Shown here: positions 9,502-11,605 of the stretch, piece by piece
Position numbering within the stretch: the first letter of the stretch is position 1
Layout of the letters: every line of letters starts with the position of its first letter
Assembly: GCA_018242725.1 (NCBI GenBank)
Contig: JAFEBI010000021.1
Span: forward strand, 1 to 64,000
Origin: Nitrospira sp.
Lineage (GTDB): Bacteria; Nitrospirota; Nitrospiria; Nitrospirales; Nitrospiraceae
Direction of reading: 5' to 3'
DNA length: 64,000 nucleotides
Made by a program: the position numbers and the translations under genes
The notes under the pieces: generated by a model
What the model saw: only the letters and a program-made list of their open reading frames with translations
Database searches by the model: none
What the model was told of the DNA's origin: nothing

Positions 9502-9978
9502 CTATGGCTGGTGTTCGGATGCGGGTGTCGTCTTGTTCTGTCCGAAGGACCGCACGTAGAGCAGGACCTGCCAGGCTTCTGCTTCGGTGAGAATCAGCGG
9601 GACAAACGGCGCCATCGCGGTGCCTTTGCTGCCATTTTTTAGGATCCAGAACAGTTCCCCATCTGTCCTGCTTGCCTGCCAATCCGTGTCGGTGAAATTA
9701 CGAGGCAAGGGGCCCTTGAGCGTTCCCGGCTCAATGTCCGCTCCTAGTCCCTTACCGTCTCTTCCATGACAGGTGGCACAGAAGGCTTTCCCTTCAAATA
9801 ACTTTTTCCCTTTGTCGATCGTATCCTCGGTAGGAGATAGCGGATTCTTCCATGTTCTTACCTGCTGGAGTTGATCCACAGGCACTCGAGGTTTCAGGAT
9901 TGCGTCATCGGCTCCAAATGCCGATAGGTTTTGCAACCCCAGCAACGACATGATCGTAACCAGCAGATAGGCACCCAT
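9502..9978 (-). CDS. Secreted mono-haem cytochrome c
   Basis: A 158-residue precursor: a hydrophobic signal segment (LLVTIMSLLGL) then a class I cytochrome c domain with haem-binding CATCH and a likely axial methionine in GTAMAPF. It would carry electrons in the periplasm; in a nitrite oxidiser it could serve Nxr or a terminal oxidase, but that is inference. The ATG at 9978 has a GAGAGGA site five bases upstream and is preferred to an ATG at 9993. It is convergent with the YihY gene. Confidence 0.88.
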   Translation of the reverse strand: MGAYLLVTIMSLLGLQNLSAFGADDAILKPRVPVDQLQQVRTWKNPLSPTEDTIDKGKKLFEGKAFCATCHGRDGKGLGADIEPGTLKGPLPRNFTDTDWQASRTDGELFWILKNGSKGTAMAPFVPLILTEAEAWQVLLYVRSFGQNKTTPASEHQP

Positions 9979-10028
9979 GTCTGTTCCTCTCATTACCTAA
10001 TCTTGCAGAATCATCGGTCCAACGACAA

Positions 10029-10063
10029 GGGTCGGCCCGATCCGTGAAGGATAAAGCCGACCC
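10029..10063 (-). terminator. Candidate terminator after the DUF1264 lipoprotein gene
   Basis: An 8-bp perfect stem (GGGTCGGC/GCCGACCC) with a 19-base loop lies 17 bases after the stop, followed on the minus strand by TTGTCGTT. The loop is long, so the call is tentative. Confidence 0.5.
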
Positions 10064-10079
10064 GCTTCAGATGACGATT

Positions 10080-10598
10080 CTATTTTTCTGAATATCCAGG
10101 GAATTTGTGTCCTAACGACTGCGGGAAACTCACCGTCCCATCGGGGAATTCCTGCCCATGCTGCCACAGTTGGTAGACGATACCGTCTGTTCCTGCCGCG
10201 ATTTCTACGACTTTGGCGGCCTGGTCAGCAGGCATATCCAAGACTTGAACTCGCCCGGTCGCGACTTCTACCTTATGATCATGGAAATGCCGGTGCCACT
10301 GAATGGCTGGGAGCTTGCGCGTGAGGTCTTTGGCGATAAAGTACTCGACAGCGACCAACGGAGCCTTTGGATCGGTGGATTCAAACAGGAGACATTGGAG
10401 AATTTTGTCCGAGATCCCCTTGCAGTAGTGGTGGAATGGGCCGCCTGGTGTGCCATCCGCCATCATATGAGGCGCCTGGACATGAATGTCGTATCCGACT
10501 GCCGGACCGGCTGGTTCTCCGCTCACGGCTTTTTGAGTGGCGATGCTGCTACAACCGATGGCAACCAGTGCAAATGCGGCCAAGAGTCCTTTTTTCAT
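10080..10598 (-). CDS. DUF1264 (oil-body-associated-protein-like) lipoprotein
   Basis: A 172-residue precursor with a lipoprotein signal (MKKGLLAAFALVAIGC; lipobox VAIGC, Cys16). The mature part matches the DUF1264/OBAP pattern: HHYCKGISDKILQCLLFES, then VEYFIAKDL and QWHRHFHDHKVEV, rich in histidine and cysteine. Plant relatives associate with oil bodies; bacterial function is unknown. The Shine-Dalgarno GAGGAGG lies within a predicted hairpin (10610-10626). The neighbours are a cytochrome c downstream and a PSP1 protein upstream. Confidence 0.85.
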   Translation of the reverse strand: MKKGLLAAFALVAIGCSSIATQKAVSGEPAGPAVGYDIHVQAPHMMADGTPGGPFHHYCKGISDKILQCLLFESTDPKAPLVAVEYFIAKDLTRKLPAIQWHRHFHDHKVEVATGRVQVLDMPADQAAKVVEIAAGTDGIVYQLWQHGQEFPDGTVSFPQSLGHKFPGYSEK

Positions 10599-10609
10599 TG
10601 GAATACACC

Positions 10610-10626
10610 CTCCTCAGTTTGAGGAG
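10610..10626 (-). promoter_or_regulatory. Hairpin sequestering the ribosome-binding site of the DUF1264 gene
   Basis: A perfect 7-bp inverted repeat (CTCCTCA-aac-TGAGGAG on the transcribed strand) includes most of the GAGGAGG Shine-Dalgarno that lies about 10 bases before the ATG. Pairing would hide it from the ribosome. Confidence 0.5.
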
Positions 10627-10644
10627 TCCCCTCCTAGCCCATCT

Positions 10645-10660
10645 AGGCAGAGAACTGCCT
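10645..10660. repeat. Second leader hairpin of the DUF1264 gene
   Basis: AGGCAG and CTGCCT form a perfect 6-bp stem around a 4-base loop, 18 bases upstream of the ribosome-binding-site hairpin. Together they make a structured leader. Confidence 0.4.
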
Positions 10661-10759
10661 CACTATTCAATAGAGCATTAGAGAGTGTGTTGCTGAAAAG
10701 GATTCGAATAACTTCAAGAAAAGAAGAGCGGTCAAACGTGAGGAAAGACAGGGTATGAA

Positions 10760-11605
10760 TTACGATGGCAGGATTGGCGAGTCAGCTTTGGTTGGGGTAA
10801 TGAGTTCATGTGTCTGTTGTAGAATTTTTCCCTGAGCATCCATCATTTCAAACATCAAGCAGCACTTCAACCGTCCGCAGACGCCGAGCAGGCGAGGATC
10901 ATCGATCGGCAGATCCATCTTCTTTGCTTGCTTCGCTGTCACTGGTTTCACGTCGGTTAGAAATGACGCGCAGCATAACACCAGACCACAGGTATCGATC
11001 CCACCCAGTCGCCTGGCCTCTTCCCGAACCCCGACCTGGCGCATTTCAATCCGACCGCCAAACCGTCGTGCAAGGTCACGCACGAGCTCCCGAAAATCGA
11101 TGCGTTCATCCGCCGTATAGACAAAGGTGAGTTGTCGACGGTCCATGGCGCCATAGACCTCAACTAGTTTAAGGTGGATGTTGAGATCGACAGCTTTCGC
11201 CTTACAATAGCTGGCCGCCTCCTCGGATAGACGCTCCAGCCTCGTAATTAACCCCGCTTCCTCGGAGTCCGGCTTGCGCAAGAGGGATTTCATAGCCCGC
11301 ATGGGCGGAGTAAACGGAGCTGAGTAGGGGGGAGTGTAGACGATGCCGTAGGTTACTTCACCGTCGGCCTCAAGTAAGACTGGATCGCCATAGGACAAGA
11401 CCAGCCCATTCGATCCCAACTTCTTGACATCTCCACGGTTTCTAATCTTGACGCCAACAAGCGAGACCCACGTCGGCCAGGGAGTCAACACATCGTGGTT
11501 CACAGGGGACTCCATACGTCGATCATACACAATTCCCGTGCATGGTGAAAAGGGTTGATGCTGTGGAGTAGATAAAAGTTTCAGCAACCGCCTTTCTCCA
11601 ATCAT
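10760..11605 (-). CDS. PSP1-domain protein, RicT/YaaT-like
   Basis: A 281-residue protein with a PSP1 domain from about residue 48. The cysteine-rich CGLVLCC and CGRLKCC motifs near 206-250 correspond to the iron-sulfur-binding cysteines of Bacillus RicT. RicT with RicA/RicF adjusts mRNA processing by RNase Y; those partners are not in the window. A strong start is lacking: the ATG at 11515 (MESPVNHD) gives a shorter N terminus closer to known RicT proteins, and neither start has a clear Shine-Dalgarno. Confidence 0.87.
   Translation of the reverse strand: MIGERRLLKLLSTPQHQPFSPCTGIVYDRRMESPVNHDVLTPWPTWVSLVGVKIRNRGDVKKLGSNGLVLSYGDPVLLEADGEVTYGIVYTPPYSAPFTPPMRAMKSLLRKPDSEEAGLITRLERLSEEAASYCKAKAVDLNIHLKLVEVYGAMDRRQLTFVYTADERIDFRELVRDLARRFGGRIEMRQVGVREEARRLGGIDTCGLVLCCASFLTDVKPVTAKQAKKMDLPIDDPRLLGVCGRLKCCLMFEMMDAQGKILQQTHELITPTKADSPILPS

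Follow-up and report, generated by a model that had tools for sequence, protein, structure and literature searches.

The leader of the DUF1264 gene in a Nitrospira genome raises the question of whether RNA structure governs this message and, if so, which of several competing structures is under selection. The stretch analysed, hereafter the window, comprised positions 1 to 64,000 of contig JAFEBI010000021.1 (Nitrospira sp., assembly GCA_018242725.1). On its minus strand the open reading frame 10598-10080 (10080..10598) codes for a 172-residue product assigned to DUF1264 by domain match (PF06884, E 2.9e-17), and downstream of it lies a c-type cytochrome gene (9502..9993, minus strand), also identified as an open reading frame with a domain match. 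The closest related loci were from Nitrospira assemblies (94–98% protein identity), and among 80 related loci compared for gene neighbourhood 76 carried the DUF1264 gene followed by a c-type cytochrome gene, an order also found outside Nitrospira, including in Nitrospinota. The gene upstream is psp1, and the leader occupies the intergenic region downstream of it. The DUF1264 protein contains conserved HHYC and WHRHFHDH-like stretches, residues that suggest metal or haem handling, and comparison of the protein with solved structures returned no real match. Literature searches found nothing for DUF1264 together with Nitrospira (the DUF1264 papers were not on Nitrospira as judged by title and start of abstract) or for Nitrospira together with RNA thermometers. 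Cold-shock/DUF1264 fusions are treated in the accessible part of PMC4679880.

The preliminary description of this leader had proposed that the Shine-Dalgarno (SD) sequence is locked in a perfect hairpin, with a second perfect hairpin just upstream, and that the arrangement acts as a translational switch, for example one responsive to temperature or to a protein. An inverted-repeat search of positions 10400–11000 found both repeats exactly as described. The first (10610-10616/10620-10626, 7 nt, 100% complementary, 3-nt loop) forms hairpin S (10610..10626, minus strand), in which the arm CUCCUCA (10626-10620) pairs with UGAGGAG (10616-10610). The latter is the 3' arm of S and includes part of the SD of the DUF1264 reading frame, GAGGAGG (10609..10615, minus strand), so that the arm does cover the SD in the window. 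The second repeat (10645-10650/10655-10660, 6 nt, 4-nt loop) gives the AGGCAG/CUGCCU hairpin at 10645..10660 (minus strand). When the upstream part was dinucleotide-shuffled 5000 times, a perfect stem of at least 7 pairs over the SD arose only 14 times, indicating that S exceeds chance expectation, and the energy model left the window SD mostly paired (unpaired 0.13 at 37 °C, falling to about 0 when 45 nt of coding sequence were included).

Comparison with relatives placed these hairpins in a different light. Sixty-seven leaders (the window and L031–L096) were collected, and 43 with one shared architecture, chosen by eye, were aligned. S was complete with all 7 pairs in 3 of the 43 and one pair short in 8, while the upstream hairpin retained its six pairs in the window alone (1/43) and was rejected as a conserved element. 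Double changes in S numbered 4 in comparison to a mean of 7.4 under a tree-aware null, in which the tree and the number of changes per column are preserved over 500 replicates, and 3 in comparison to 4.0 for shuffled data in an alignment that had not been fitted to a covariance model; pairing of S was slightly above the tree-aware null (70.3% versus 61.4%, 29/500). The complementary arms expected in relatives were thus absent for the upstream hairpin and largely so for S, and both hairpins as reported are, on comparison of the sequences, specific to the window genome and its closest kin. The lock on the SD stands as a prediction for the window, whereas its covariation in relatives was not found.

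Judged by the same aligned rows, the conserved structure is a longer hairpin, H (10620..10662, minus strand), identified by covariation, folding z and covariance-model matches, and of the two partners available to the CUCCUC strand the first reading had taken the one that is less conserved. H is 43 nt long with 17 pairs (10662-10620: GAGG..GUUCUCU-g-CCUAG[AUGGG]CUAGG-AGGGGAC-u-CCUC). Its stem P1 pairs 10662-10658 with 10624-10620 (UGAGG/CCUCA), P2 pairs 10655-10649 with 10632-10626 (GUUCUCU/AGGGGAC), and above a bulged G at 10648 P3 pairs 10647-10643 with 10637-10633 (CCUAG/CUAGG), all on the minus strand, as is the cap AUGGG (10638..10642) delimited by row comparison. Together with its closing pair the cap is GAUGGGC or GAUAGGC in 32 of the 43 leaders, a near-constant GAURGGC. 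The CUCCUC strand (10626-10620) is common to H and S, which are therefore mutually exclusive, and the reported upstream hairpin likewise excludes P1 and P3 of H. The H segment folded at z = -3.39 in the window, and mean folding z was -1.90 for the 43 leaders with H in comparison to -0.21 for the 24 leaders without it and -0.72 for 42 coding segments.

Pairing within H was tested against several controls. In the model-fitted alignment 81.0% of H cells were paired with 42 double-change cells, in comparison to 24.7 in shuffled and 10–16 in slid controls, and the unfitted alignment gave 80.4% paired and 40 double-change cells versus 25.7 shuffled. Under the tree-aware null the whole of H was 80.6% paired versus 71.3% (1/500), and P3 stood out with 97.7% versus 88.0% pairing and 20 versus 4.6 double changes (0/500), keeping all 5 pairs in 39 of 43 leaders. 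P1 alone fell within this null (68.8% versus 60.6%, 69/500); its arms shift register between clades, with GCGGA/UCCGC in clade L089–L095, and from our own reading of the rows the column counts probably understate P1. An R-scape-like test on the 43 leaders found no significant pair over all column pairs, and when restricted to the 17 structure pairs it gave two pairs with E about 0.04–0.05. The RNAalifold consensus for the unfitted alignment contained P3 and a portion of S, with P1 and P2 absent. Of the 587 cells that paired, out of 728, 111 were G.U; taken as the complementary strand the same 728 cells would yield 515 pairs, which argues that H is a sense RNA. Overall, these results showed that H is under RNA-level conservation, strongest in P3 and the cap. 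The suggestion that this leader carries a regulatory structure is upheld to the extent that it is structured RNA under selection, and the covariation sought in relatives was present, in H rather than in the hairpins first described.

In the genomes scanned, H occurred at one position and in one genus. The covariance model, which was built from the 43 leaders and by construction re-found exactly those 43 among 81 sources, gave one strong match in the window's own genome (E 1.6e-17; next match E 1.37). A scan of 79 genomes of the genus, overlapping those that trained the model, found the DUF1264 gene in 67 and an H match at or below E 6.1e-4 in 50, a single strong match per genome, and all 50 matches ended 7 to 14 nt before the DUF1264 gene (positions compared by eye). 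The 17 of 67 genomes possessing the DUF1264 gene with no H match indicate that H is dispensable. Several H-less leaders (L042, L055, L059, L067, L069–L072) have a different C/A-rich stretch of CAACC type just before the SD. Among 98 relatives in 15 genera, every match at or below E 0.1 fell in this genus. On the DUF1264 protein tree the presence of H required 3 changes in comparison to 23.7 with shuffled labels, so that H follows lineage, having arisen on one or a few occasions. H was also retained in 14 of 42 H-bearing relatives whose fetched flank yielded no psp1, indicating that it belongs with the DUF1264 gene and not with the tail of psp1. A wider RNA family was rejected, given the next own-genome match and six weak genus matches (E 0.006–0.08), four of which were read and by eye had no P3 with cap. 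An Rfam search of positions 10000–11600 matched no family; the sole hit, to a snoRNA model (E 0.73), scored well short of the gathering threshold and did not overlap the leader.

Upstream of H lies a promoter-like element at 10678..10705 (minus strand), consisting of GAATCC (10705-10700), a 17-nt spacer and TCTAA (10682-10678). GAATCC-N17-TCTMA or close variants, searched as a fixed pattern, occurred in 54 of 67 leaders, many of them without H, and we take this element to resemble sigma-E/ECF promoters. Seven bases downstream of the element, 32 of 43 leaders have a purine, about six rows being mis-anchored, which points to a likely start near 10671 and would leave about 9 nt between the 5' end and H. 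The pattern occurred at 4 sites in the window's own genome and at none in a reversed control. One other site lies inside a rapZ-like gene and is attributed to chance, and one precedes a pair of ThiS-like and cysteine-synthase-like genes (all these names being read from translations). A further copy in the same genome (L149 841-866) lies about 150 nt before an open reading frame with a CAHCH haem motif, and judging by this motif a cytochrome-linked sigma regulon is possible. A clear sigma regulon was rejected, as the three other own-genome sites showed none. No promoter consensus was found in the accessible part of PMC3107203, which deals with promoters and Nitrospira.

We interpret the feature as the 5'-terminal structured leader of the DUF1264-cytochrome c message, in which H stabilises the message and/or keeps the SD open, and assign this reading a probability of about 0.5. 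Transcription would probably start near 10671 from what appears to be an ECF-type promoter, and the nascent RNA would fold at once into the 43-nt H, which has a GAURGGC cap and stops three nucleotides short of the SD region. H would protect the 5' end of the message, and its base would hold the CUCCUC strand so that this strand could not pair with the SD, the default effect being a stable, translatable message. Message stabilisation and an open SD are what we infer as the function of H, and regulation may also act through the cap or through the alternative fold. When the 43 leaders were folded with 45 nt downstream of the aligned segment, P3 had a probability above 0.5 in 34, and the CUCCUC strand paired upstream more than downstream in 28 of 43. 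According to the accessible part of PMC7148126, a stem-loop and the SD allow the ompA leader to lengthen the life of its message, and the ompA stem is called nonspecific there. The present leader resembles that of Escherichia coli ompA in that a stem-loop lies close to the (here predicted) 5' end of a message for an envelope protein, with a strong SD after it. It differs in the covarying stem of H and the conserved sequence of its cap, and stabilisation by H is presumed. It differs from the tisB ribosome standby leader, as presented in the accessible part of PMC7708055, in that the unpaired stretch is short and adjoins the SD and that no processing is known.

Alternatively, and with considerably less likelihood, the leader may be a two-state translational switch, H leaving the SD free (on) and S locking it (off), with a factor or the state of translation shifting the balance. 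Translational riboswitches use sequestor and anti-sequestor stems, and here too a single strand has two possible partners, an upstream one and the SD; H differs in being a simple 17-pair hairpin, before one gene per genome, with no Rfam match in the stretch searched and no ligand core visible. A switch would account for the strand shared by the two folds and for the fold preference of the window, which moved from H to S as coding sequence was added (30 nt). For a transcript ending at the start codon H was better by 3.4–4.5 kcal/mol in minimum free energy (68 or 78 nt upstream) and by 0.1 kcal/mol (88 nt); addition of 30 or 60 nt of coding sequence made S and long-range pairing more favourable than H by 2–8 kcal/mol, and with 120 nt the two tied. 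S was also complete, or lacked a single pair, in 11 of 43 leaders, mainly in the window's clade. However, S lacks covariation and is broken in near relatives. In L033, L034 and L041 an SD-side change breaks S and H stays whole. Predicted pairing of the SD with the arm exceeded 0.5 in 6 of 43 leaders, the window among them (in folds extended 45 nt past the aligned segment), and was about 0 in clade L089–L095, which keeps H with CCGC in place of CCUC. Of these two exclusive folds H is conserved and S is not, and a two-state switch is possible chiefly in the window's own clade.

Another explanation that we regard as doubtful is that an RNA-binding protein or a small RNA controls the operon by docking on the hairpin with the GAURGGC cap. 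This would explain why the cap is GAUGGGC or GAUAGGC in 32 of 43 leaders while the stem below varies by compensation, and one gene per genome is what dedicated or autoregulatory control would show. The usual CsrA site is a GGA in a hairpin cap. CsrA is encoded once in the genome, but the cap is without GGA in 41 of 43 leaders, so that the usual CsrA site is missing, and a CsrA target was rejected with GGA in only 2 of 43 caps; no candidate factor was found. The cap (10637-10643, minus strand) is also partly complementary to a stretch round the inferred start (10669-10675, minus strand) in many relatives, and the cap may pair with the 5' end of the message. The best register of this pseudoknot paired 205 of 294 cells in comparison to 199.4 (sd 2.9) shuffled, a weak excess for which part of the partner precedes the inferred start and the anchor is visibly misplaced in about six rows (L045, L047, L052, L061, L064 and L065), L045 alone being uncounted owing to its longer cap.

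An RNA thermometer or SD lock formed by the two reported hairpins is very improbable. ROSE and FourU elements are RNA thermometers that mask the SD, and the window does share with them an SD-complementary arm just upstream of the SD, both repeats being real and the window SD predicted mostly paired. S is, unlike them, a G+C-rich perfect stem with no predicted melting, and its masking is not conserved. Exposure of the window SD was 0.08 at 10 °C and only 0.15 at 45 °C, the energy model showed no general melting trend over this range across the 43 leaders, and SD accessibility averaged over these leaders was no lower than after shuffling (mean rank 0.615), which makes a thermometer unlikely. The proposed temperature response was therefore rejected on the energy model and conservation, S being whole in so few leaders and the upstream hairpin in one. 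Least probable of all is a DNA-level palindromic operator or a terminator of psp1, which would fit an inverted repeat in the intergenic region downstream of that gene but was rejected as largely refuted by the G.U bias towards sense RNA, with no terminator-like site called there and H persisting in relatives where psp1 was not found.

Returning to the structured-leader reading, a more speculative extension, which we consider improbable as it stands, is that H is a Nitrospira-specific single-target RNA control element. A factor recognising the GAURGGC cap would move the leader from H to the SD-locked fold and back, and DUF1264 and cytochrome c would thereby be tied to a signal, respiratory or from the envelope, that an ECF sigma factor senses. 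The genus Nitrospira includes central nitrite oxidisers and comammox bacteria; it is hard to manipulate, and little is known of its RNA-level control. A covarying leader with one target, together with its conserved promoter type and the conserved DUF1264-cytochrome c pair, offers a handle on that control and on the role of DUF1264.
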